From Struthio camelus (taxonomy: Eukaryota > Chordata > Aves > Struthioniformes > Struthionidae): a stretch of 64,000 bases of DNA. The position numbers were made by a program, and so were the translations under genes. Where the stretch lies: contig NC_090956.1 in assembly GCF_040807025.1 (NCBI RefSeq), forward strand, positions 3,646,517 through 3,710,516. Direction: 5' to 3'. Under the pieces are notes generated by a model that saw only the letters and a program-made list of their open reading frames with translations, ran no database searches and was not told the DNA's origin. The stretch's first letter is position 1; each line of letters starts with the position of its first letter. Below, piece after piece: positions 355 to 63,795 of the stretch.

Positions 355-3300
355 CTGGGGGAGAGATGGGTGCCGGTAGCAGAGACCCCCCGCTCTGGGG
401 ATGCCCTCCCCAGCCTGGATGGGACGTACCTCCCTCAGCCACCTCCGCGCCCTGCACAGTGAAGAAGTCGATGACGCGGGAGGTGAAGTCCAGCGTGGCG
501 AGGGTCTGGCCCTGCAGGACACTGACGCAGTGCCGGTCGCCGTAGCTGGCCCTCGGCATGCCACCATTGAAGATGATGAAGGGATTGCTGCAGGGAAGCA
601 GCTGGCGTCAGATACCTCTGTCCCTGCAGCGACTGCAGGGCAAACCCCGGGCTCTGCAGGACACCTTGCCCCACAGACTGGCAAGGCTGAGCCACCAGCA
701 TGCTCTCTGCAGTTCATATCTCTTCCAGCACCCAGGTTCCCCCAGCCGTACCTGTCACCCAGGCCCCCGGTGACAGAGGGGAGACTCCAGCAAGCCCGGG
801 GAGAGCCCAGCAAACCCACTGCTGCGCTGGACAGGCACATGCCAGCCCCAAGCCCACCTGGCCGGAGAAGCAACAAGCTCTGCAGGGACATACCCCGATT
901 CGCAGGTTCGCCACAGGATTTTGTTGATGGCTTTGCAAGGGAAAGGACCTGAAATGAAGACAACCCCATGGTTACAACTTCCCCACCGCACATGGGGTCC
1001 AAGGACACCTCAGTTTCCTGAGCATGAGATGAGACCCTGGGGGCTGCGGAGTCTTCCCAGCACCCAGGAGCTGGGACAGTGACATCAGTCTAAGCTCCAT
1101 GGCACTCAGGAGGTGACAAATCAGCCAATGCCACTCTACACCAGGACTCCAAGCCGCCCCTGGACCCTTCCTGCCCTGTTCACTGGTGCCAAGCACAGCA
1201 CCGGGGTCTCCGAGGGGGCAGGCACATTGTGAAGGCACGATGGGGCCAGGCCAACGCACCGTACGGGATGGTGGACATGACGGGCTGCTGGGTCTTCTGG
1301 CAGCTGCTGTTCACCGCCCACACCATGTAGCCCCCATCGCTGTGGGAGCTCACGATGGTCTTGCCGCTGTGCTCCCAGGCCAGGCTTTCCAGTTGCTGCA
1401 AAAGAGAAACAGGGGCTTGAAACCGGGGGAAAGGAGGCCCCAGCCCCACCACAGCTCCCCGCGGCAGGAGACAGACCCCCGAAGCCAGTGAACCAGGAAC
1501 CAGCAGCTCCAAGAAATGCTCCCGGTGCACTGACAGCCAGGAGATGACAGGCAGTCCTGCCCTGTCACACCCTGCCCCAGGCCACCAGCTGCACACCACC
1601 CTCGCAAGGTAGCCAAGAGGCCCAGGAAGGCTCTGCGCACCCGGGCGGCTGGAGGCACCGACCGGCCACGGACACCCAGGGCCGCGTGGCCAGGTCTGGC
1701 CGAGCTACCTGGTTCCCCAGGAAGAGATGATCCACGGTGCGCGTGCTCTGGTCCCAGATGATCACCAGCCCCCGGCTGTACCCGATCAGGAGCTTGCTAG
1801 GGTCCTGGGGGTGCTCCTGGATGGACTCCACTGGCCCCAGCGCCTTCCCGCAGCGGTAGTCATCGGGCACGCTGGCGGCAGAGGAGAGCGGGGTGAGGGG
1901 AGGTGGGGGCTGGTGGGAAGGGGCGCGTGCCCGGCCGGCACTCACCTTTGCAGGATCTCGTCCTGGAAGAGGGTTTTCTCCTCCAGCAGCGTGAGGCCAG
2001 GGAGCGCGAGAAAGTACACCCCGCCACCCTCGGTGCCCAGGCAGGCCACGTCACAGGCGGACTTCAGCAGGATCACCGTCACCCGGGTGATGCTGGGGGA
2101 ACAGCTGCAGAGAGAAGCGCGGGGCTGCGTCAGCCGCGCTGCCCCTCTCCGCAGGACACAGGCGCCCCGGGCTGCGAGAGGCGCGTGGCGCGGCGTGGGG
2201 CACCCCCACGCGCGGGGACAGCCCGCTGCTCATGGCAGGAGGGTGCCGAGACTCCATCCCTCTCCAGCCCCGCTCCGATGTTCACCCCACCGTCCCCGGT
2301 CCCCACTCGGGCGCAGACCCGCCGAGAGGATGGAGATGATGCTCAGGGAAAGCAGCCAGGCAGACTCCAGCTGTTTGGTCATCACCATTCACCGCCATCT
2401 CCCCTTCAGCCTAGATGCTAACAGTTCCGTCTACAGCCAGTTACAGAGCCATTAATTACAAACCAGGCCTTGCCAACACCTAAAAAAAGATCACTCGAGT
2501 CCAGGACTGCAATTTTCCCCATTGCACGCTGTCTCTTTAAAGTTCCTCCTTGCTAGCTAAAGAGCAGCCGCTGGTTTGGAGCACAGAGGCCAAGCTGCTT
2601 CGCTAGAGGGGACATGCAGGGGCGAGACACGCTAACGCGGGGGGCCCTGCCGAACCCCGCACCTGCGGCTGCTCCTCCAGCCGCCGTGGGGATGCAGGTG
2701 GCCACACGGGCTCCCATAAGCCAGGCCTCCAGGGGCTGTTTTGCCAGGCACGCTGAGGATGGAGAAAGGGATGGCCAGCCCCCGCAACCGTCCGTCCCCC
2801 CTGGCAATCACAGCGCCTGGCTCGGAGCCCTGCTGCAGGCATGCAAGAGGGGGACAAGGACTCACGGCCGGGCATTCGGTCGTGCATGGGACAAGGCAGC
2901 TGGCGGATGCGGGGCCGGTCGCACTCCTCTGCCTACTCGCGCTCACCGAGCACAGGATTTAGCCCCAGGTTTTCCTTGCTGGGTTCAGAGCTGTGGTGCG
3001 GACAGGCTCAGACCGCAGACCCAGGGCTGTTCGGATAAACCCCATCCAGCAGCTCCCAGCACAAATGGGGCGACTGCCCGGCCCAAGCACCGAGGAGCAT
3101 CCAGGGCTTGGCACCGCTCCTCTCCTAAAGCACTGCTAGACCTGTGGCAGGAGTGTGCCCAGGGCAATGAAATCCAGTCGTTATCACCTCTGCTTGGGAA
3201 CCGCCTGGATGGGGAGCCGGAGGCTGGGAGAGCAGCAGCGATCCCTCCCTGCACGCCAGCCCTGACCTCGAGTTCTCCCCTAGGCAACTGCTTTGGCCGC

Positions 3301-9300: not shown

Positions 9301-12300
9301 TCATCCGGCTGTTCCCTGCTCCCTAGCAGAAATCGCTGTTCATCCTCCACCTACAGTTTGCATTCCCTAAACAGACAGGCAGGAGGGCTCCTCTGCACGG
9401 GTCCCTGCCCTCGCAGAGGGGCTGCGGGGACAGAGCACCGAGCACCCTGGGCTCGCCCGCCCGTGCCCCTGGGCTCCCTCCGGCCGGCGATGCTGGCTCC
9501 CCTCGTCCGCAGGGCTCTTCCCCACTGGCCCCGTTCCACCGCGGGGTTTACGGTGTGGCTATTTCAAGGCGAGGACGTCTCCATTCATACATCAGGCGTT
9601 TGAGACGACGCAGCAGTTCCTTCCCGCTCCCCACCCACTCCCGTCTCCCCGCCTGCGGTTCCCCCTTCCCCCCGAGACGTGCATCCCGGGCCAGATGCAG
9701 GCCAGCTGCTGCAGACGGACGCGGCCGAGGGCCGCCCGGCCCCAGCGTCGCCCGGTCGCGCTAACCGGGCCAACCGCGTCCGGGGAGGCTGCTGCGTCCG
9801 AGGCCAACCGCTGCCTCTGCTGGGATTCGGGGAAGCCAGCGAGAGCTCTTACCTGCTGCCCTCGCGGGGCAGCCCGGAGAGACCAGCGCCGAGGAAAAGG
9901 ATACATCTTCACCGCTCCCGACTTGGTGCCGATGGCCATGATCCTCAGCTTGGGGTCGTAGGCCAGGGAGCTCGGCTGGTTGGGGAAGCCATGCTCCACC
10001 GTCTGGGGGAGAGAGGAGGGTCAGAGCAGAGATGGGAGCCCTGCGGCACCTCCGTCCTCCCCACCCCGGTCCTCTGCTGATGGAAACCATCCACGTCCCC
10101 CGGCAGCACCGGAGGCGGCCAAAAAGCATCACCAGGAAAAACAAGGCCCCCTCAAACGAGGAGCCGGTAAAACCCTTGGCCGAGGCAGAGTCTCCGGCCC
10201 CTCGGGGTGGCTCAGGGCCTCCGCGGCCCACGCAGCGCAGCTGCGGACGCCGCTAGCCCGGCTCCAGGCCCGCGGCTCCCGGGAGCCCTTCGGCAGGAGG
10301 GGAAGGGAGCGGCGGGGAGACGGATCCAACTTGGCCGCGGAGCCCGCCAGCGGCTCCCCCAGTTCCCCAGGCCTGGCCGGCTTCCCTGGCGCGCCGGCTC
10401 CGAAGCCCAGCCCGGCTCCCACACGCCAAGCGTGCAAAGCGCCACGCAGCGGAGCCCGGATTTGGGCTTCACGGCACAAACATCCCGCGGCCAGAGCTGG
10501 AGGCTGGCGCGGCCGACGGGTGCTCATCGCCAAGGGTCATCTCCTGCACGCGATCCACAGCGCTGCCCTGGCTGCACCTCCCACGCTCCCTCCATGGAGA
10601 TGATCCCACTAGAGACACGCCGCAGATCCAGGCCCCACCAGCATGACCCACAGCACCGCAGTCAGCAAGGGACTTGTCTCCAGCAGAAAGGATGCTAAGG
10701 ACAGCAGGACAGCTCTGGGAGGACGGCTCTGTCCCACCGACCTCTCCCAGCCCAAAAACTCCCCAGCACAAACCGATTTAGACTGATGCTTTTCAGAGTT
10801 CAGCCTCCCCCCAGGCATCAGGCACTCTCCCCAAAACCTCGGCCAAGGGCACAGCGGAGGCGACCTCCGGCCAAGGAGAGGCCGTCCAAGCTAGCAAGAG
10901 GCCTGAGCACAGGCCTACAGCCAGGACACTACCTTGCTAAAAGCCAAACCTCTGCTTCAGCGGAAGAAGTTAATCAGGAGAGCAGTCGTTCCCAAACTGG
11001 CTGGGCCCTCAAAGAGAGGGATGGGGGACCAGGACGAGCACAAAACGCAGCAGCAGCGGGACTGGCCGCTGGCCTCCCGCCCCCTCCCCGCACTGACACC
11101 GGCCAGCTCGCCTGCCAAGACGTAATGTAGAGCAGACCCAGGATGTCATCAGCGCAATTACAAGCCATAACGCAAAGTGCGCACAGATCTGTCCCATAGC
11201 TCTCGTGCATATTTTGGCACAGCCGAGACCAGCACAGAGCCTTTTGTGCACAGGATGTTCTGCACTAGCCTTGCACGAAGGGCAGTCCCCAACCCCGGGC
11301 AGACCCCCCCCCCCGGGCTCATCGCCAGTGATGCAAGCCGGCCGGAGCGCGTGGCGGCTGGCGATCCCTGCCCCGGCCGCGGCTAGGAGCCTCCAGCGCC
11401 TCCGCAGAGCCGCGCCGCTGCACGGGACGCTGGCGGGAGGCGAGCGAGGGTTTGCTCCGTGCTCACCACTGCTTCATGAGAAAGAGCCTGCCAACGGATC
11501 AGCTTGGAGAAGGGACCCATCCAGCGGCTTTCAGGGCATCCTGGAGGGAAAGGGGCCAACCGAGGCCTGCTCACCCATCACCCCAATCCTCTGCCCTCGG
11601 TCCCCACCACCATGGACAGCCTGGTTCCTACTGCTGCCCATGGCCCTTCCCACCACGTGGTGCTAGATGGGTAGAGGAGCCCTCCCACAGCTAAATCCCT
11701 GCCCGAGGGCAGGACGGCACAGGAGGAAACACACCGCCACGCTTGGCTCAGCTACGGACCACAGGCTCACCCTGGCCACGGGCTCTCATCAGGGCACGGC
11801 GCTGGCATCGCGCTAGCCCAGGAGCGGCTCGCGCCCAGCTCAGCTCACCGTGCCGTTGCACAACCACCTCCGCTGGCATGGGGGAAATGTGGGAGTGGAA
11901 ACGTGGCCCGGCAGGAACTGTGTCATCCAAACAGTGGCTGCAAAAATTCATAAACAAGTGGTTTACCTTGCAGCCACCCCAGCGCAGGGTCCCCCGCGAG
12001 GAGCGGAGCGCGGCGCTGCCCGGGTTCGCCTCCCTGGCCGCAGCGCCTCGCAGCTTTCCAAGGAAAGGAGGCAGAACCAGGAGAGCTGGACGCTCAAGTG
12101 ACTCGGAGCTGAGACCTTCCCCAGCCAGAGCCGCACACCGGGGCCTGCAGGCATCTTCCCAAGGAAGTCCCGGATGGCGGCGCTCCGGCAGCGTGCCCGG
12201 GCTCGTCGTCTCGGGAGAGGCTGTGCCTCCTTGCAGCGGGAAGTCGGAGGGGCACCTTGCCACCGCCATCCTCTCCTTCGGCGAGAGCCAGGAGCCCTCG

Positions 12301-24173: not shown

Positions 24174-39155
<14,982 letters not shown>

Positions 39156-53900: not shown

Positions 53901-56900
53901 GTCCCGCAGCCCCGGTGCCGCCAGCCCCTTCTGCACGATGTAGTTGCCGAAGAGGGTCTCCTGCGGGCCGCCCAGCCCCGGGTCGCCCATGAAGCGCAGG
54001 ATCTGCCGCGGGGAGAGCGAGGGCAGAGTGGCACAGCGGCACCGCTGGCCTCGGCCCTTCCTCCTACCCCGGCTCCTCTTCCTCCTGCTCCTCCACCCCC
54101 AGGGCAGGGATGGGGCAAAGGCTGGGATCACGGTGCCCAACCGAGGAAGGATGGGCCAGGGTGAGCCCAAAGGATGGAGCTGAGCATCCTGTTCCCACAG
54201 GAAGGGATGGAGGGGATGGAGGCATGGAGGGGAAGAAGGTGACAGAGGGACAAAGGGATGGATGGGTGGAAGGATGCAGGGATGGAGGGGATAGAGGGAA
54301 AGGAGGGCTGGAGGGGACGCAGGGGACGCAGGGGATGCAGGGGATGGTGGGGAAAGAGAGGTAGAGGGGATGGAGAGGACAGAGGCGATAGAGGGGATGG
54401 TGGGGACAAAGAGGATGGAGGGGATGCAGGTATGGAGGGGATGGAGGGAACAGAGGGGACAGAGACCACAGCCACAACGGGAGAGACATCCCAGCACAGC
54501 GAGGGCAGGCACCATCCCACTTACCAGCTTGAAAAGGCCGAGTGCCTCGTGGCACAGCTCCTCCTCCAGCCGAGTCAGGGGGGCAGCCAGTGGGGCCGTG
54601 AGCATCCCAAACGCCGGCTCCTGCAGCGACACCGCGCACCTGTGGCTACCCAGCACCCGCGGCGCCCGGCTGCCACCAGCCTCGGCCCGCGGGAAGGCAG
54701 CGTGAGGCTGCAGGAGGGTCGGGGCCATGGTGCTGAGCGTCATGTCGCAGCCTGGATGGGCGCTGGAGCAGGGTGCTGCAAAAGGGCAGGGGTGCAGGAT
54801 GGGGCCGGTAGCCTCCAGGCTGCCAGCCAGCACTGGGCTCAGGCTGTGCCAGCAAGGCCAGGTGTGCCAGTGAGGCCGAGAGCCAGATCTGGCTCTGTTG
54901 CCTCCATTTGGGATCCCAGGGACTTGAAAACACAGCACAAAAATAGAGGAGGAGGAAGAGGAAGGGTGCAAAGCAGCCGTGCATTGATTTGGGCCAGGGA
55001 CGGGGGGCCCGGGAGCAAAGCGACCTGATCTCCCGGCCCTGTGGAGTGACCGAGGCGTTTCCAGATCCGCCCTGAGTCGGGCATCCAGGAGGGCTCGGCC
55101 GGTCTCTCACGTCACTCCAAAAACCTCAGCGGGGTCCCCCCGGCCTCTGCAGACAACAGGAACCCACGGGGAGGACGGGAGGCCATAGCCTGGCTCAGCA
55201 TAGCGCCTGCAGCCGCCCCTGGGTCCGGCCCCCCTGGGCACCGTGGGGCTGAACCCGGGGCCAAATCCCAGCTTGGGCTGCGCGGGAAGTCGGGCAGCGG
55301 AGCCAAACTCGGGGACCCTGAATCTAATCACGCGGCCGCGCTGCCCTCTGGGGCACCGAGGACTACCCGAAATCCCATTTCGCACACCCAAAAAGGGCTG
55401 GGAGCCAGTGGCGCACAGCTACCCTCCAGCGGGGCTGCCGGCGCCTCCCTTACCTGGAAGTGGCCCCGCACGTACTTGGCCATGGGGTAGTTGTTGATGT
55501 CGAGCGGGAGGGTGAGCTGGGAGTCGGGCTGCAGCGCCGGCGGGGGCACCAAGACCACGCAGCCGGCGTTCACCTGCCCAGCGGCTGCGGCACAGGGGGC
55601 AGCTCGAACCCCGTGGCAGCCCAGCCGTGCCCCCGGGGCTGCCGCGAGCCGGGCCGGCGGGGGCCGCTTACCTGCCGCGGCCTCCAGCAGCCCCATGAGC
55701 TCGGCGGGGATCTCCAGGTGCGTCACATCCACCACCTCCCTCCTCGTCAGCTCCTGCAGGGCAGGGGCAGGGGGATGGGTAGACACGCGGCATGGATGAG
55801 GGCACCGCAGCATCCCGGGCCAAGGCCACGCACACCCATGCGACCTGCACACGCTTTGCACCCCGCGCTCCTTGTCTGCATGCATGCACCTGCTCGCCCA
55901 CCTGGCACCCCCTTACCTGCTTCATCCTCTCCTTCTCCTCCTCTGCCCGCCTGCGGGCGTCCTCCTTCCTCTGCAAGCAGAACAGCCGCACTGAGCGCTG
56001 CGCTGGCCCCACAGCCACCTCGCCTGCCTTTGGCATGCCACGTTGGCACCGTGGCCACTTTGCCCATCCGCTGGCAGAGAAAACCTCTGGGCAGGAGCCA
56101 GCCCATCACATCAGCCCAGCCAGAGGCTGCTCAGCTCAGCTCGAGGCACCAGGCCCTCTCTGGGGGTGCCCAGCTGCACATGGGAGGGACAGAGGACACA
56201 GCACACCTGCATCCCTTCTGGCATCACTGGGGTTTTGTCTAAAAAAAGGCTCCACTCAGGCCAAATGGGGCATCACGGGCAGGAGGTGGCCGGGATAGGG
56301 GTTTGGGGGGCTCAGGAAGGTGCAGACACCAGGACTGGCCCCATGCCCTCTGCGGACCTGCCACCAAGGACGCAGCAGGGAAGCTTCCATCACCCCCAGG
56401 CCCCGCTGGCCCCTGGTCGCCCCCGCTCACCTTGAGGTACCGCCGGCGGTTCACGTAGATGTGCACCAGCGACCTGAACCTGATGAGCGTGTGCCTCATG
56501 CGCCGGTACCGCTGCCTGCGGGAGGGTGCCCGTCACCACTGGCTCCCTGCGATCCCACCCCCAGGCAGCCCTGTGGCCCCTCCATGACACCAGCTCTGGC
56601 CCTACCTGGCGAGGTAGCCACGGGCCCGGCTCTGCAGGAGGACGATCTTGCGGCGCAGGGAGCGGAAGCGTCTCTTGATGAAGAAGGTGCGGGCGTAGCG
56701 CTGCAGGGTGAGCGCCGCCAGGTGCTGGGCACGGGCCCGCTTGCTTTCCAGTGCCTGGTACAGCTGCTCCTTGAGGAAGAGCTGGGGGAGTGATGCCATG
56801 AGCCTCGGCATCCCTGCTGCCAGCCCCACACTGCCCCGGACATGCTCTGATTCCCAGAGCATGCGAGCATGCACGGCCCCACAGCATCACTGATACCCCA

Positions 56901-59900
56901 GGGGCTCTGAGCACCCTTAAACACATACCGCCGCAGGGACGGTACCTTGCTCACACCAACGTAGTACATGCTGGGGGTGACAGCGCAGAGGTTCCTCAGC
57001 ATCTCCACGCAGTTGGTCCCATTGGGAATGACGTTGGACCACATGTCGACAAGGCAGCGGTACCTGCGCGAACACCTGATGCTATTACGGGGCCCATGCG
57101 AGACCCGGCCCGAGGGAGACCTCCGGCCACCTGCCTTGGGTGCCTGTCTGGGGACATCAGCACAGGCCCACCCTGTCTTCCCCTCCCGGTGATTAGCTCC
57201 ACGTTGGGAAAAGTAGCTTATCCTGGGCTTTTTCACCAAATCTGGGGGGTTCCCAGCTCCCTGCCACTTTCCTGGGCTCATGGGAGCCCCTGGGGCCAAA
57301 CGCTGTCTCCTAGATTCCCACAAGGTTTTTGGTCTTTCACCCCATGGGTGGTGGCACCCAACCATATCTGGGTGCTCTCCATCGTCCCCAGCCCCTGCAG
57401 ACACGTGGCGCCATGCTGCGGCACCTGTCGATGAAGACAAGGAAGGGGATGCGGATGGGGAAGCCCTCCTTCCGGATGCGGATGGTCTCCAGGATGCCCG
57501 AGTAGCGGAGCTGGACGCTGACAACGTCGGCCTCGAAGAGCCCTGGCTCCTGGGCAGGAGGGAGAGGGGCACTGAGTCCCTGACCCGTGCCTGGGACACC
57601 AGTGCGGGCCATGGGGGACATTGCCGCCCCACACGACTCACCTTCTTGTTGTTGGGTTTGAGGCAGCGCACGAAGAAGGGGTTGCACCTGTGTCAGAGAG
57701 AAACCAATGGTGGTGGGGCAGCAGGGAGGAAGGTGTCCCTCACTGCCCTGCTGGATGGCTCAGCCTAGGTTCATCCCTCCCCACCAGCTGCCTGCCTGCG
57801 AGCCTGATGTAGCTCCTGCCTGCCCTGCCCGCGCTGACCTCTCCATCTTCTCCACCAGGTCCAGGAGCGACTGCTGGAACCTGGCAGCTACAGTGGGGGC
57901 CTTGTAGCGCCGCGTCCTGGTGCTGTTCCTCCCCACCAGGCTCTTCTGCCGCGCCATCACCTGGGCATGGCCGAAGAAGAGGTTGGCCACCACCTTGGAG
58001 GAATGGGAAGAGTTACAAAGGAGGAAAGTGTCCACAGTGGTGCAGGGCTCCTGGGGGCACAGCACCTTCACAAGCCTCATGGGTAAAGCTCTGGGGACAT
58101 TAGGTGTACCCACAAGCTGATGTGTGCACAGGGACCAAAGGGGGCTAACCCAGACCAGTGCCTCCCACCACCACTGCAGAGACCCAAGGCCAGGGCAGGG
58201 CCCTACCTTGGTCCTGCTGCTGATGAACAGGTCCAGAACATCCTGCCGCACCTGGTCATAGTTTTTATCCAAAAATTTGTGCACCTGCCGAAGAGCAAAG
58301 CCTGGCACTTAAGAGCACGTTGGCACGACAGGGGAGGCGAGAAACTACTGGCCAGGGCACCATAGGGTCGGTGGCAGCTCCTGGGTCCCAGCCAGACCCA
58401 TTGGGGCTGTCCCTCCCACCCAGCATGGGATCAACCCATAAACAGCCATGTCAGCACTTTCTCTAATCCACCCTTAAAACCCTTCACTAAAGCCCAGGCG
58501 AGGTGTCTCACTGCCACGCACCTGGTAGGTCACCTTCCCTGCATAGTGTTTGATGGTGAACTCTGGCAGTGGCATCTTCGGCTTGGTGTACAGCGGGTTC
58601 ATTCCATGGTGGTAGTGACACTTCTGGAGGAAAGTGTGGTCTGTAGCCTGGGAACAGATACAGGCATGAGCGTGGATGCTCTGAGACGTGTCTCATGCTG
58701 GTTAGCAGCCCCAGGCACGCACGCATTGGCATGGGTTCACCCATCCAGGTGAACGAAGGCAGTATGTTGTGCCTCCAGCTACACAAAATAATGCCCTCCT
58801 CGGAGAGGGCATGTCTCTGGTGAGGACGTGTCCCCCCCATGCTGCACAGTCCATGGGCCAGGCATGTGGCATGGAGCAGGCAGAAATACAGGGTGAATCA
58901 AGGAGGTAAAAATCACTCCAGCCAGGGCTGCAAGCTGGAAGGAGCAATCACAGCTACGTCCAGGGCCCCTGCTCTCAGTTCTGCCACCAAGTGGCTGCAT
59001 GGCCACAGGTGTCTGCTTCACTATGCAGACATCAGCACAGAGGGTGCAATCACCCTTCTCTGTTTTAGAGGGCAGCTAGGAGGTTTTTTCAGTAATTCCT
59101 GCAAAAGCAGGTCCTCTGCGGGAAGTTGCTTCATGGGCACTGAGCTGGGACCTCTCAGAGGTTGTGCTGTCCAGAGAGACCTGCAGGGTCTCCCCGTGTC
59201 ACCTAGGAGCTGAGCAGCTCTGGGATGTGGGGACACCTGGGCATGGTGACACCCCAGGCGTGGTGACATCCTGGGTGCATCGCCCTCACCACCTTCACAT
59301 CAGGCAGCACCTCACCTGGGGAAAGCAGCTCTGGTCGTCGAGGATGCGGAGGATGCCATAGGGCTTTTGGGAGATGAGGTCAATGCAGGGCTGGTTGTCG
59401 CTGAAGGGGATTTCCTTCCACTCGATCTGCTCCCGGAGGTACTCCTCCTGCAGAGCAGGCCGGCTTAGTGATCCTGGCTGCACAGCTGAATGTCCCAAAC
59501 ACCAGGAACAGGCTTTTGGGCACCCCAAAGCCCCCAGCTCCGCAGCAACCCTCAAGGCCATGCTGAGGGGCAGCCTGAGGACAGGAAGACATCAGGGACA
59601 CCTTGCCTTCCCACCTGCTCCTCCTGGAAGACGATCTTGTTGAAGAAGAACTGCAGGTACTCGTTGGCGTAGTTGATGCATAACTGCTCGAAGCTGTTGA
59701 AATTGAGATCCTGCAGAGAGAGGGGGCCACGGTGCCTGAGACCACAGAGGAGCCAGCCCCAGCAAGCCCAGCTGGCGTCCCGATGCATGCCAGACCCATC
59801 CGTGCAGCCCTGGGTGCCACTGCTGGGTGGCACACGATGCCCGCTGCAGGGTGAGCTGCAGGGAGCGCAAGGAGTGACAGAGCCAGCCCTGCTCACCTCG

Positions 59901-62900
59901 AACCCATAGATATCCAGGATGGCGATGGAGAGGGACTCCTGCCTGGGGTATACAAGCTTGTTGATGCGGTCCGTGAGCCAGCCAAAGAGCAGGGAATAGA
60001 GGATCTTGGCAATGGCGTCCCTGGGAACGAGGGTGAGACGAGCAAGAGCATTGGCTTGAGGAGCTCCCGGCAAGGAGCTGGAGCCCTGCCCGCTGCGAGG
60101 GCTTCCCACGGCACGACCCTCGTCCTTGCTGCCATTGCCAGGACCGATCCCAGCCCCACTGCCAAGCACAGCAGTCTGCAAACCACCCACCTGCTGTGCG
60201 CCAGGAGCCCTGACCTCCCCTTTCCCAGCCCTGGCTTTGCTGCCATGTGGCGCCCCATCGTCGTGACACACAGCACGGATCTGTCACAGCAGAGACCCTT
60301 TACCTGGCATCCACTGCACTTTCGACAGTGAGGGGGGTAAAAATCTTCTCCCGCAGTGTTTCCTGATTTGGGGGAAGCAAATGATGTGGCATGATGGAGA
60401 TTTTAGCAGCGCCCGCTACAGTCTGCAGGAACCAAACCCTGCCAAGCTCCTGCGCCACAGCCATCGCAGCTGCTCGCTGCGCACCGCTGCACACTCACCG
60501 TCACCTTGAAGGTGATGGCTTTCTGCAGGCCCTCGGGGGAGATCTGCAGCAGCTCAGCCACGGTCTGGATCTCCGTCGCGCTCACCACTGTTGCGACCTC
60601 CTGGCAGTCCGTCTGTGGACACAGGGCGATACGGTGGGAAGAGGCGGCCGCCAGGGTGGGAGAAGAGGCTCCGTGCGGGGGCCCCTCCAGTGCGGGATGG
60701 CCACCCGGTGGCAGCGGAGAGCACGCCCACTCCGTTCAGCCGAGCTGGTTTTCACTAGCTGAGCTGATTTTCACCAGCCAGGTCGCGGAGCCATCCCGCA
60801 GGGCCAGGCTGAATTTCCTCCCCACGGTTATAGTGATGTATTGGCACTTATCTGCATCCAAAGTCAAGCCAAAACACTGTTTTTAGTTTAATTTTGATTG
60901 TTTTTTCTGCAATGGAAAGTTCTAAGACTTTTTTCCCTATAAACCTGAAATATCAGAGCAAGATCACCATTTTCCCATGGAAAAAATGCAAGCAGACTCA
61001 GTGTTCCTCTTCCTCTTCCTCCACAGAAGCTCTGGGCAGAGATGCCTCCCAAGAGCCATGCCATTTACTCATCTCGGGAACCGGCCAAAACAGCTGGTTT
61101 GGGGACGCTACATCCAGATGTGGTGAGAAGCTGGCACATTTGCTCCCTGGCTCCCCTTGGCTTAGGGGAGAGACCAGCTTGGCAGCTTTCTGCAGCTGGG
61201 GACACGTGTGTGCAGGATGTCCCTCCTGCCCTCACCCTGCTCCAAGGCTGCCGCCAGCCCCGTCCCCTCCCTGATACCTCGTATTTTTCGAAGTAGACGT
61301 TGCCCAGGTGGAGGATGGAGGACAGGATGCGGAAGATGCTGTTCTGTTCCTCAACGCTGAAGCTCAGGACCTCCATGGTATTGAGCAGCCGCCGGAAATC
61401 CTCAGCATCGTCCTTGCCAGGGATCTCACAGTTCCCGCCCTGGAAGAATCCCACAGATGCGCTGTCAGGGCAGCACATGGCTGGGCTGGCCCTGGCCACC
61501 GCAGGGACCCTAGCAAGTGAGGACACCCTACTCCGAGCTTTGCCCAGAGCATCCTCCCCACCGGCCCGCAGGTACCCTGGTGGCTTCGTTCTGGCTTCAA
61601 CAGCCCTGAGTCCAGTGTCCAGGCACACGGGGCAGGCGACCCACCTGGTTCAGGTAGTAGTAGGTCTCTGCGTCCTGGAGGCAGTATTTCTGCCGCTGCT
61701 GGGCAGGGAGGCCGGCCAGCATCTCATAGAAGATGTGGTAGTTGCGCTCATTTTTGGCCTGTGGAGCAGAGGGCCGAGCTGAGATGGGTGGCGGTGCAAG
61801 CAGAGCTCCCGGCCGGCTCTCCACCCACCTGAAACACCACGCGGGATTTCTCCAGCAGGTACTGCGAGGTTATGGCACCACAAATCAAGCCGCTGCAGGG
61901 ACAGGATGGGGATCCCAGGCTGTCAACCTTGGCACGGCCGGGAACTGCCACCCGCCCTGGCCCGAGCCCCGTTTGCCTGGAACAAAAGGCTGCACCCACC
62001 CTGCGGTGCCCAGCTGTACCTGAGCCTGGTTGGAGCTGCTGCGCCCGCAGTGAAATTGGGCATGACCTAGCAGGGCCTGGTGGCCATGCTGGGTGCCTCC
62101 TGGGCAGGGGAGCATCTATAGGGCTGAGTGAGGGCAGGATGAGCTGGGGGGCTTGTTGGTAGGTCAGGGATGGGGGATCCGCAAGCAGGACCACTTCCCT
62201 TCCCCTAGCCCCAGCATGGGCACAGCACCAGAGGACACAGCCATACCAGTGCCTTGGGCAGGGGACAGCAAATGCTGCGTGAACAACCTCGTGTTTCTCC
62301 CACCTGCTTTTTGCCTCCCCAGAGGCAGACCCACGTGCGAGTCCGACACCAGCCGTGCTGGCAGCCAAGCAGAGCCAAGGGGGCAGTGAGATACAGGCAG
62401 CCCAGGACCAGCACTGGGGTCCAGGGCTGGGGCTGGGTCCTGATATGGGGCTGGAGTCCTGGGTCAGGGCTGGGGTGAGCCACAGTGGCACCCCCAGGAC
62501 AGGGAGGATGGGAGGGTTGGGGTCGGACATGCACGGATGTTGCTTAGCATTACTTACTCTTCCAGAAAGATTTCCACAAATTTCCCAAACCTGCTGGAAT
62601 TGTCATTCCTCACGGTTTTGGCATTGCCGAAGGATTCCAGCAAGGGGGTTGCCTCCAAGATCTGCCCGCAGTGGACATGGAGAGCCATGGCATGAGACTG
62701 CAGTCTGGGCACCCCAACACGCCATGGTCACAGGTTGTCCCCCTGGGGTGAGGGGGACCATGCCACCTTCCCAGCCGTGCCACCCTTCCTGCCACTTCCT
62801 GTCCAGAGCAGACAAGCTGGGGGCAACAAACGCCAATGTGTGCAACACTGCGGGGCTGTGCAAGGATGTGGGACGGCACAACGACCCCATGCACACACGC

Positions 62901-63795
62901 ACAGGCAGGATCCTACACCCATAGTCCCCGTGCGGCTGGGGTGATGTGCTGATGATGCCACCATGACACTCAGCTCCCTTGAACAGCCCCAGCCCACGCT
63001 TCCCCCTCCGGGTACCTCTATCTGCCATGGTCCGAGTGGAAGCATGAGGACAAGGAGAGTGGCAGACATGAGCGCAGCACATCAGCAGGGTGTAGGGACG
63101 GGGACATGCCTGCCACACGTGCCCAGCCGCATGGAGGTACGCTACCTGCTGAGCTGTGCTGCGTTTCTGACTGACGGCTGCCAGGTAGCGCAGGATCAGC
63201 TTGGTGGCTTCTGTCTTCCCTGAGCCACTCTCCCCGCTGAACCGAGGAGCAGAGACACAACCGGGGCCATCACCAGCCAAGCACAAGGGCCAGGGAACAC
63301 ATCCACCCCGAACATATCCATCCCGAGCGTGTCCAGCCCAAGCATGTCCAGCTTGAGGGCATCCATCCCAATTATGCACCCACCTCAAATGTGTCCATAC
63401 TAATCATGCATCTACCTCAAACATGTCCATCCCAAGCGCATCCACCTCAAATGTGCCCAGCATTGAGCATGTCCATCCCATGTGTCCATCCCAAGTGCAT
63501 CCATCCCAAGAGCAGCCAACCCAACCCAACGCAACACCATCGACCCCAAGGCTGGGCTATGCTGGTGGGAGATTATGCTGATGCTGGGTGCCGACACCCA
63601 GTGTAACGTGCAATCAGTGCAGCGCTAATTAAGGACACCATCTTAGCAGCCTGGAGGGATGCCAGCCAGGAGAGGGGTGTGCAGGGGGAATGGCACATGT
63701 GGGTCCCAGCTGCTTCTCACCTGATGACGATACACTGGTTGTGTTTGGCATCCATCATTTTAGTGTAGGCGACGTTTGCAATCGCAAAGAGGTGC
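41827..63795 (-). CDS. MYO15A: MYO15A (unconventional myosin XV), motor to C terminus, 60 coding exons
   Basis: Myosin XVa carries whirlin, EPS8 and partners to stereocilia tips in hair cells; human mutations cause DFNB3 deafness. Sixty exons, all GT-AG, join in one frame to 2,179 residues plus TGA. In window numbering: P-loop GESGSGKT 26-33, switch I NDNSSR 76-81, switch II DIYGFE 299-304, converter region to about 596, three IQ motifs about 618-683, a short charged helix 684-701, MyTH4-1 about 750-940 with a FERM-like segment to about 1030, a Pro/Gly-rich linker to about 1270, FERM F2/F3-like segments to 1500, SH3 about 1501-1585, MyTH4-2 and FERM about 1680-2150, and a C-terminal PDZ ligand ITLL. 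The start of the motor and the large exon-2-type N-terminal extension lie beyond the right edge. Human MYO15A has 3,530 residues, so about 60 percent is here. Confidence 0.97.
42087..42227 (-). CDS. MYO15A: MYO15A window exon 59 (FERM F3)
   Basis: 141 nt. Encodes [40 protein letters not shown] and LQLEQ. Confidence 0.96.
42485..42655. repeat. About 20-nt minisatellite in a MYO15A intron
   Basis: Eight or so copies of a TTGCATTGCATGCTCTCGG-like unit on the plus strand between exons 58 and 59, diverging at the ends. Confidence 0.85.
42752..42885 (-). CDS. MYO15A: MYO15A window exon 58 (FERM F3)
   Basis: 134 nt. Encodes [20 protein letters not shown] and [18 protein letters not shown]. Confidence 0.96.
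43262..43415. repeat. GCATCGC-type imperfect repeat in a MYO15A intron
   Basis: Plus strand shows recurring CCCCGGCACCATCGC and GGCAGCATC words, ending in tandem CCCCGT hexamers next to exon 57. Confidence 0.65.
43418..43551 (-). CDS. MYO15A: MYO15A window exon 57 (FERM F2)
   Basis: 134 nt. Encodes [20 protein letters not shown] and [11 protein letters not shown]. Confidence 0.95.
43700..43833 (-). CDS. MYO15A: MYO15A window exon 56 (FERM F2)
   Basis: 134 nt. Encodes [20 protein letters not shown] and [20 protein letters not shown]. Confidence 0.95.
44010..44170 (-). CDS. MYO15A: MYO15A window exon 55 (FERM F2)
   Basis: 161 nt. Encodes [40 protein letters not shown] and YVTVHYNQ. Confidence 0.96.
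44255..44351 (-). CDS. MYO15A: MYO15A window exon 54 (FERM)
   Basis: 97 nt. Encodes [20 protein letters not shown] and [11 protein letters not shown]. The following 84-nt intron is stop-free in frame. Confidence 0.96.
44672..44749 (-). CDS. MYO15A: MYO15A window exon 53 (FERM F1)
   Basis: 78 nt. Encodes [20 protein letters not shown] and KIKTCS, the ubiquitin-like F1 lobe of the C-terminal FERM. Confidence 0.96.
45202..45296 (-). CDS. MYO15A: MYO15A window exon 52
   Basis: 95 nt. Encodes [20 protein letters not shown] and [10 protein letters not shown]. Two overlapping gt donors (gtggtg, gtgagc); the second keeps the family residue count. Confidence 0.92.
45473..45486. repeat. Poly-C run of 14 in a MYO15A intron
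   Basis: C14 on plus (G14 in the transcript) just downstream of the exon 51 donor; potential G-quadruplex in the pre-mRNA. Confidence 0.85.
45523..45653 (-). CDS. MYO15A: MYO15A window exon 51 (MyTH4-2)
   Basis: 131 nt. Encodes [20 protein letters not shown] and [20 protein letters not shown] is a MyTH4 hallmark. Confidence 0.96.
45917..45999 (-). CDS. MYO15A: MYO15A window exon 50 (MyTH4-2)
   Basis: 83 nt. Encodes [20 protein letters not shown] and TDNTSSK, the LRDEVYCQ helix of MyTH4. Confidence 0.96.
46107..46180 (-). CDS. MYO15A: MYO15A window exon 49 (MyTH4-2)
   Basis: 74 nt. Encodes [20 protein letters not shown] and TILK. The KFMGD motif is the MyTH4 signature. Confidence 0.96.
46443..46515 (-). 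CDS. MYO15A: MYO15A window exon 48 (MyTH4-2)
   Basis: 73 nt. Encodes [20 protein letters not shown] and ETFQ. Confidence 0.95.
46798..46870 (-). CDS. MYO15A: MYO15A window exon 47 (MyTH4-2 start)
   Basis: 73 nt. Encodes [20 protein letters not shown] and KFTK. Acceptor ends tcctag. Confidence 0.92.
46997..47139 (-). CDS. MYO15A: MYO15A window exon 46 (linker)
   Basis: 143 nt. Encodes a Gly/Pro-rich stretch ending [19 protein letters not shown]. The FARQYFR motif is shared with human (FAQKYFR). Confidence 0.92.
47229..47428 (-). CDS. MYO15A: MYO15A window exon 45 (SH3 end and linker)
   Basis: 200 nt. Encodes [20 protein letters not shown] (SH3 GxFPxxYV end), then an alanine-rich [17 protein letters not shown] linker. 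Confidence 0.95.
47878..47952 (-). CDS. MYO15A: MYO15A window exon 44 (SH3)
   Basis: 75 nt. Encodes [20 protein letters not shown] and TQDF, an insert in the SH3 n-Src/distal region as in other class XV myosins. Confidence 0.93.
48192..48303 (-). CDS. MYO15A: MYO15A window exon 43 (SH3 start)
   Basis: 112 nt. Encodes [20 protein letters not shown] and [13 protein letters not shown]. Shows the ALYDY-like and FxKGDII strands of an SH3 domain. Confidence 0.95.
48305..48372. repeat. CA/CACGCATG-type simple repeat in a MYO15A intron
   Basis: Plus strand runs of GCATGCACACGCATGCACAC type with decay, next to the acceptor of exon 43. Confidence 0.75.
48599..48740 (-). CDS. MYO15A: MYO15A window exon 42
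   Basis: 142 nt. Encodes [20 protein letters not shown] and [18 protein letters not shown], the last part of the F3-like fold. Confidence 0.95.
49157..49275 (-). CDS. MYO15A: MYO15A window exon 41
   Basis: 119 nt. Encodes [35 protein letters not shown]3-like strands. Confidence 0.95.
49352..49467 (-). CDS. MYO15A: MYO15A window exon 40
   Basis: 116 nt. Encodes [34 protein letters not shown]. Confidence 0.95.
49851..49926 (-). CDS. MYO15A: MYO15A window exon 39
   Basis: 76 nt. Encodes [20 protein letters not shown] and MKSLF. FERM F2-like helices. Confidence 0.95.
50340..50399 (-). CDS. MYO15A: MYO15A window exon 38
   Basis: 60 nt. Encodes [20 protein letters not shown]. Confidence 0.95.
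50653..50774 (-). CDS. MYO15A: MYO15A window exon 37
   Basis: 122 nt. Encodes [20 protein letters not shown] and [15 protein letters not shown]. Entry to the middle FERM-like segment. Confidence 0.93.
51039..51138 (-). CDS. MYO15A: MYO15A window exon 36
   Basis: 100 nt. Encodes [19 protein letters not shown] and PLSTTRPP. A nearer gt at about 51,092 would break the frame, so the gtaccg donor with correct phase is preferred. Confidence 0.85.
51225..51318 (-). CDS. MYO15A: MYO15A window exon 35
   Basis: 94 nt. Encodes [20 protein letters not shown] and [11 protein letters not shown]; human keeps DPHEEALMILKGQ. Confidence 0.94.
51443..51581 (-). CDS. MYO15A: MYO15A window exon 34
   Basis: 139 nt. 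Encodes [20 protein letters not shown] and [14 protein letters not shown]. The LNSEHFPxPTQxI block is a conserved island within the linker. Confidence 0.94.
51722..51782 (-). CDS. MYO15A: MYO15A window exon 33 (linker)
   Basis: 61 nt. Encodes [20 protein letters not shown]. Supported by splice sites and phase only. Confidence 0.75.
51910..51971 (-). CDS. MYO15A: MYO15A window exon 32 (linker)
   Basis: 62 nt. Encodes [20 protein letters not shown]. Supported by splice sites and phase, with little family conservation. Confidence 0.75.
52082..52199 (-). CDS. MYO15A: MYO15A window exon 31 (glycine-rich linker)
   Basis: 118 nt. Encodes [35 protein letters not shown]. Human has a similar RMKGGG glycine-rich stretch. 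Confidence 0.88.
52367..52455 (-). CDS. MYO15A: MYO15A window exon 30
   Basis: 89 nt. Encodes [20 protein letters not shown] and DPVLSYGNG. The [16 protein letters not shown] block is highly conserved in myosin XVa. Confidence 0.95.
52584..52693 (-). CDS. MYO15A: MYO15A window exon 29 (linker)
   Basis: 110 nt. Encodes [20 protein letters not shown] and [14 protein letters not shown]. Proline-rich, poorly conserved linker; phase-consistent. Confidence 0.85.
52850..53041 (-). CDS. MYO15A: MYO15A window exon 28
   Basis: 192 nt. Encodes [40 protein letters not shown] and [18 protein letters not shown]. The donor gtaggt is chosen by phase with the next exon. Confidence 0.92.
53260..53332 (-). 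CDS. MYO15A: MYO15A window exon 27
   Basis: 73 nt. Encodes [20 protein letters not shown] and LKH. Start of the ubiquitin-like FERM F1 part. Confidence 0.95.
53475..53653 (-). CDS. MYO15A: MYO15A window exon 26
   Basis: 179 nt. Encodes [40 protein letters not shown] and HCFN. End of MyTH4-1. Confidence 0.95.
53767..54002 (-). CDS. MYO15A: MYO15A window exon 25 (MyTH4-1 core)
   Basis: 236 nt. Encodes [39 protein letters not shown] and [17 protein letters not shown]. MyTH4 helices. Confidence 0.96.
54187..54480. repeat. GGGGATGGAGG minisatellite in a MYO15A intron
   Basis: G/A-rich plus strand built of GGGATGGAG-type units, purine-only for long stretches. It fills most of the 522-nt intron between exons 24 and 25. 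Confidence 0.85.
54525..54620 (-). CDS. MYO15A: MYO15A window exon 24 (MyTH4-1)
   Basis: 96 nt. Encodes [20 protein letters not shown] and [10 protein letters not shown]. Donor gtaagt. The downstream intron is stop-free in frame. Confidence 0.95.
55454..55584 (-). CDS. MYO15A: MYO15A window exon 23 (MyTH4-1 start)
   Basis: 131 nt. Encodes [38 protein letters not shown] and [13 protein letters not shown] marks the entry to the first MyTH4 domain. Confidence 0.95.
55672..55753 (-). CDS. MYO15A: MYO15A window exon 22
   Basis: 82 nt. Encodes [20 protein letters not shown] and GLLEAAA; the human equivalent also keeps a REVV...LE.PAEL core. Confidence 0.94.
55917..55970 (-). CDS. MYO15A: MYO15A window exon 21 (charged helix)
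   Basis: 54 nt, phase 0 on both sides. Encodes [18 protein letters not shown], nearly all charged. It sits between IQ3 and the first MyTH4 domain. Confidence 0.92.
56431..56515 (-). CDS. MYO15A: MYO15A window exon 20 (IQ2-IQ3)
   Basis: 85 nt. Encodes [20 protein letters not shown] and VNRRRYLK, the end of IQ2 and a degenerate third IQ. Confidence 0.95.
56606..56781 (-). CDS. MYO15A: MYO15A window exon 19 (IQ1-IQ2)
   Basis: 176 nt. Encodes [39 protein letters not shown] (IQ1) and [14 protein letters not shown] (start of IQ2). Light-chain binding lever. Confidence 0.95.
56946..57063 (-). CDS. MYO15A: MYO15A window exon 18 (converter)
   Basis: 118 nt. Encodes [35 protein letters not shown]. 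Converter of the motor. Confidence 0.95.
57425..57549 (-). CDS. MYO15A: MYO15A window exon 17 (SH1 region)
   Basis: 125 nt. Encodes [41 protein letters not shown]1/SH2 helices leading to the converter. Confidence 0.96.
57642..57687 (-). CDS. MYO15A: MYO15A window exon 16
   Basis: 46 nt. Encodes [15 protein letters not shown]; the RCLKPN motif is invariant in myosin motors. Confidence 0.95.
57839..57993 (-). CDS. MYO15A: MYO15A window exon 15 (loop 2 region)
   Basis: 155 nt with an aag acceptor. Encodes [20 protein letters not shown], the basic [11 protein letters not shown] and [18 protein letters not shown]. The basic stretch lies in the actin-binding loop 2 region. Confidence 0.95.
58207..58284 (-). 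CDS. MYO15A: MYO15A window exon 14
   Basis: 78 nt. Encodes [20 protein letters not shown] and ISSRTK. Confidence 0.95.
58522..58647 (-). CDS. MYO15A: MYO15A window exon 13
   Basis: 126 nt. Encodes [35 protein letters not shown]. The HYAGKVTY motif is conserved in myosins. Confidence 0.96.
59316..59447 (-). CDS. MYO15A: MYO15A window exon 12
   Basis: 132 nt. Encodes [39 protein letters not shown]. Lower 50K domain. Confidence 0.96.
59615..59710 (-). CDS. MYO15A: MYO15A window exon 11
   Basis: 96 nt. Encodes [20 protein letters not shown] and [12 protein letters not shown], the relay-helix region of the motor. Confidence 0.96.
59897..60020 (-). CDS. MYO15A: MYO15A window exon 10 (switch II)
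   Basis: 124 nt. Encodes [20 protein letters not shown] and [19 protein letters not shown] is switch II. Confidence 0.96.
60304..60362 (-). CDS. MYO15A: MYO15A window exon 9
   Basis: 59 nt. Encodes [19 protein letters not shown] plus AG. Acceptor aaatcag. Confidence 0.95.
60499..60612 (-). CDS. MYO15A: MYO15A window exon 8
   Basis: 114 nt. Encodes [36 protein letters not shown]. Upper 50K region of the motor. Confidence 0.95.
61278..61439 (-). CDS. MYO15A: MYO15A window exon 7
   Basis: 162 nt, 54 codons. Encodes [40 protein letters not shown] and YE. The ILHLGN motif is typical of myosin motors. Confidence 0.96.
61645..61758 (-). CDS. MYO15A: MYO15A window exon 6
   Basis: 114 nt, 38 codons. 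Encodes [20 protein letters not shown] and [12 protein letters not shown] (upper 50K). Confidence 0.96.
61829..61892 (-). CDS. MYO15A: MYO15A window exon 5
   Basis: 64 nt. Encodes [20 protein letters not shown] plus Q, the conserved motor strand after switch I. Confidence 0.95.
62558..62661 (-). CDS. MYO15A: MYO15A window exon 4 (switch I)
   Basis: 104 nt. Encodes [20 protein letters not shown] and [14 protein letters not shown]. Contains the switch I NxNSSR motif. Confidence 0.96.
63016..63021 (-). CDS. MYO15A: MYO15A window exon 3, 6-nt microexon (Ile-Glu)
   Basis: ATAGAG flanked by ccatggcag and gtaccc on the minus strand. It is in phase 0 between AQQ and ILEATP. As I recall it, the human protein has IK at this place, encoded by a 6-nt exon. 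Upstream there is a pyrimidine-rich stretch. The flanking introns are 124 and 354 nt. Confidence 0.75.
63146..63236 (-). CDS. MYO15A: MYO15A window exon 2 (P-loop)
   Basis: 91 nt. Encodes [20 protein letters not shown] and [10 protein letters not shown]: Walker A of the myosin ATPase and the start of loop 1. Confidence 0.96.
63296..63520. repeat. About 15-nt minisatellite (CATCCATCCCAAGTG) in a MYO15A intron
   Basis: About 15 diverged copies of a CATCCATCCCAAGTG-like unit on the plus strand between exons 1 and 2 of the window, just upstream of the P-loop exon on that strand. Confidence 0.85.
63721..63795 (-). CDS. MYO15A: MYO15A window exon 1
   Basis: 75 nt. Encodes [20 protein letters not shown] and CIVI, the strand before the P-loop. 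It starts with the last base of a codon, so earlier exons exist outside the window. Confidence 0.94.

Follow-up and report, generated by a model that had tools for sequence, protein, structure and literature searches.

A candidate six-nucleotide exon in motor loop 1 of a MYO15A gene, probably orthologous to MYO15 micro-exon 8

Loop 1 is known from other myosins to influence nucleotide exchange. Variation in conventional myosin and in Myo1b, the subject of titles in the reference list of PMC7948958, concerns this surface loop, which lies close to the nucleotide pocket, and tunes kinetics; those are different genes with different loops. The closest described system is MYO15 itself. In PMC7948958, micro-exon 8 is described (citing that paper's reference 2) as alternatively spliced and as encoding 'IK' in loop one, and an effect of 'IK' on access to the nucleotide pocket is offered as a possibility. 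In the consulted parts of PMC9299544 and in a figure legend of PMC7948958, MYO15 isoforms are described as differing solely by the N-terminal domain, with the micro-exon absent from the account; such descriptions count against a large role for its alternative use. Among the matches listed, no report of MYO15A micro-exon 8 outside mammals was found in titles and abstract openings. The main text of a paper on splicing in the chick cochlea (PMC8456117) contains 'myo15' twice, and the terms 'microexon', 'micro-exon' and 'short exon' are absent from it.

The window (the whole stretch of DNA analysed, 64,000 nt) was modelled for motor and first-IQ exons, and the features are collected in Table 1. 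Spliced together, the 18 exons gave a product with a 652-residue match (1184.6 bits) to a solved myosin-15 chain. Eight of 61 coding-like picks were run against Pfam, with three above the curated cut-off (LLGL, MyTH4 and SH3), two below it and three unmatched. The MyTH4 domain (64.6 bits) and the SH3 domain (21.9 bits versus a cut-off of 21.8, thus passing by 0.1 bit) lie downstream of the motor on the same strand. ALKBH5 follows them, also on that strand, with 361.8 bits to a solved chain, and LLGL1, with a Pfam LLGL domain, is likewise downstream and in the same orientation as the motor exons. In the human genome MYO15A, ALKBH5 and LLGL1 adjoin one another, and this neighbourhood therefore favours MYO15A over MYO15B. 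By its predicted motor, its MyTH4 and SH3 domains and its neighbours the gene is identified as MYO15A, and the assignment made in the earlier note is thereby borne out.

Table 1. Positions, within the window, of the candidate microexon and of the exons and introns around it
Feature	Position	Strand	Remarks
Modelled motor and first-IQ exons (18)	56606..63795	-	Spliced product matches solved myosin-15 chain
P-loop exon	63146..63236	-	Ends CAGCAG / ...STAQQ, phase 0
Upstream intron, 124 nt	63022..63145	-	Acceptor ccatggcag
Microexon ATAGAG (Ile-Glu), 6 nt	63016..63021	-	Phase 0 at either end; probably orthologous to MYO15 micro-exon 8 (Ile-Lys)
Downstream intron, 354 nt	62662..63015	-	Weak donor gtaccc; GGG runs from +10
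Next long exon	62558..62661	-	Opens ILEATP, phase 0; presumably the switch 1 region

The P-loop exon and the ILEATP exon are 484 nt apart. On the minus strand the P-loop exon ends at 63146 with CAGCAG followed by gtagcg; the microexon site reads ggaccatggcag, then ATAGAG (63021-63016), then gtaccc; and at 62661 the acceptor ctgcgggcag is followed by the exon start ATCTTGGAG. Flanked by AG and GT, ATAGAG would add Ile-Glu and no stop. The earlier note had both flanking exons meeting the junction in phase 0, as confirmed here, and its coordinates held exactly; the acceptor and donor that it had named around ATAGAG are present and usable, and weak in comparison with the gene's own sites. The pyrimidine fraction upstream of the microexon acceptor was 0.73, against 0.44 to 0.73 at the 17 other acceptors, and the gtacc form of donor is also used in the exon model ending at 56946 (gtaccg).

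Three solved myosin-15 chains, of mouse according to PMC9299544, read QQ-IK-ILEATP at this place, so that the additional pair of residues placed before ILEATP in the earlier note is seen in them. The skip form (its first 203 residues) was aligned to a solved chain with a single gap, of two residues, exactly at Ile-Lys after QQ. In the inclusion form (654 aa) that gap is closed, in agreement with the claim that ATAGAG restores the spacing; one gap is left in the 652-residue match, of two residues and elsewhere, with the extra residues carried by the window. MYO7A reads QQ-VLEATP; anchored on QQ, it is read here as lacking the pair, the alignment placing one gapped residue at this point because MYO7A is also one residue longer just upstream. 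The skip form here would read QQ-ILEATP, close to it. A plausible motor is therefore also predicted for the skip form, and the argument for the exon comes from myosin-15, not from myosins at large.

When set against micro-exon 8, the candidate was found in the same gene, MYO15A, and at the corresponding point of the motor, with the P-loop exon on one side and the ILEATP exon on the other, with the same length of 6 nt, in phase 0, encoding two residues after QQ of which the first is Ile, and in loop 1. The 6-bp mammalian exon mentioned in the earlier note corresponds to the 'IK' micro-exon of PMC7948958, and its location in loop 1 agrees with the placement given in that paper. The second residue is Glu in ATAGAG and Lys in the published exon and in the solved chains, the charge reversal that had been proposed; this mismatch was not counted as defining for an orthologous exon. 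On these grounds ATAGAG is taken, at a probability of about 0.92, to be orthologous to the micro-exon 8 known from mammalian MYO15, with Glu for Lys. Against this reading were counted the substitution itself, which is not conservative and which drift in a non-exon could equally give, and the strength of the splice sites, which is low within the gene's own range.

Splice-site strength was scored with weight matrices built from the 18 modelled motor exons of the same gene, true sites being scored leave-one-out. The ATAGAG acceptor scored 2.8 (true acceptors 0.5 to 12.0, 3/18 lower) and its donor 5.3 (true donors 2.4 to 10.4, 3/18 lower). Scanning the 484-nt interval for AG-N6-GT, apart from 20 nt at its start and 12 nt at its end, gave three sites, and credible splice sites were present at ATAGAG only. 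Its summed score was 8.0, compared with -5.4 and -2.1 at the other two; the donors of these two sites (62973-62968 and 62704-62699) scored -2.6 and -3.3. No 6-nt candidate with a better score was thus present among the three sites. Sums this high nevertheless also arise by chance. Across the 4747 nt of the 16 other modelled introns there were 13 AG-N6-GT sites, and four of them reached the ATAGAG sum, none being Ile-first. Over the whole window the minus strand had 237 no-stop candidates, 15 of which reached the sum (one Ile-first, ATAGAG itself), and the plus strand 187, of which 6 did (one Ile-first). The splice sites alone accordingly prove little, and their strength by itself is not discriminating.

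It is on this ground that the motif might be taken for a chance AG-ATAGAG-GT within an intron, 63146 being spliced straight to 62661 and the two residues being absent from the protein, as they are from the related MYO7A. Dinucleotide shuffles of the interval held 1.94 AG-N6-GT sites on average, so about two are expected for an interval of such composition, and 554 of 5000 shuffles contained a no-stop 6-nt candidate whose summed score equalled or exceeded that of ATAGAG; in 148 of 5000 a no-stop candidate was at least as good at both splice sites. Any no-stop candidate starting with Ile was present in 112 of 5000, and what speaks against chance is that ATAGAG carries the expected Ile, has just the right length and phase, and sits in the intron where myosin-15 has its insert: an Ile-first no-stop candidate with a summed score equal or better was seen in 3 of 5000 shuffles. 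Chance is accordingly judged improbable, and the case for the orthologous microexon is strong because position, phase, length and first residue together agree with what solved myosin-15 leads one to expect.

Other routes to six additional bases were also tried. A P-loop exon donor moved 6 nt downstream would fall on TA and not GT, an acceptor of the next exon moved 6 nt upstream would fall on GC and not AG, and no split of donor and acceptor shifts adding six bases brings GT and AG together. When in-frame AG...GT cassettes free of stops and 3 to 60 nt long were enumerated in the interval, apart from 40 nt at either end, there were 33, three of them 6 nt long and ATAGAG among these. Three longer ones share the acceptor at 63021 (e.g., 24 nt ending at 62998), and one of these could be the main product in place of the 6-nt form; their lengths do not fit the two-residue insert of solved myosin-15, and such a cassette is considered very unlikely, even more so than chance.

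SRRM4-dependent microexons are a neural and hair-cell class with a UGC motif close upstream of the acceptor. The presence of SRRM4 in hair cells is given in PMC10018040. As an in-frame exon of only six bases in a hair-cell gene, ATAGAG would resemble that class. The TGC nearest to its acceptor is at -23; among the 17 other modelled acceptors, 12 have a TGC that begins somewhere from -30 to -5, so this one does not stand out. Control by SRRM4 is possible but unsupported.

If spliced in, the microexon would insert Ile-Glu after ...STAQQ, in motor loop 1 beside the nucleotide pocket, while skipping would give the QQ-ILEATP motor. By analogy with published MYO15, the exon is probably a cassette whose inclusion makes loop 1 two residues longer, and the insert would probably change the flexibility of the loop and with it nucleotide entry or ADP release. 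The replacement of Lys by Glu would reverse the charge in a loop near the pocket and may itself alter kinetics. As a matter of judgement, use of the microexon in mRNA of this species is highly probable from the sequence, its alternative inclusion is likely by analogy, and the odds of a measurable kinetic effect are put at about even.

The exon has already been described in mammals; the new element is that the gene analysed here probably has it too, with Glu for Lys. A wider account, in which the microexon is of ancient origin among amniotes and under regulation in hair cells, with its second residue charge-switched (Lys in mammals, Glu here) and loop 1 kinetics differing between hearing lineages, is unlikely as matters stand. 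The finding is sound but largely expected, and does not point to a new kind of biology. In practice, leaving the six-base exon out of a gene model would give the protein a wrong loop 1. The site offers a natural Lys-to-Glu variant for motor kinetics, and its presence in a non-mammal would, if true, extend the two-residue loop 1 option of this deafness motor beyond mammals.

LLGL1 exons were located using Pfam and sequence comparison. The Pfam LLGL family was matched by the piece at 440-589 (-), and the piece at 1709-1879 (-) scored higher against solved LLGL1 (94.3 bits) than against LLGL2 (50.1 bits). A further piece, 9922-10011, is LLGL1-like in appearance but matched no family in a Pfam search. 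ALKBH5 shares its strand with MYO15A, and its coding piece is located downstream of that gene.

Coding features assigned to neighboring genes
Feature	Position	Strand	Basis
LLGL1 exons	440-1879	-	Pfam LLGL match and solved LLGL1 match
ALKBH5 coding piece	38397-39059	-	Sequence match to solved ALKBH5, 361.8 bits

Within MYO15A, degenerate direct repeats (e.g., gggatggacatgtttgaggtagatgc and near variants) were seen by eye at 63300-63540 (-), in the intron preceding the P-loop exon of the motor. When the spliced motor was aligned with the solved myosin-15 chain, the exon at 57839-57993 (-) proved to be two residues longer than the matching stretch of that chain. This two-residue excess presumably lies close to loop 2, an actin-binding region.
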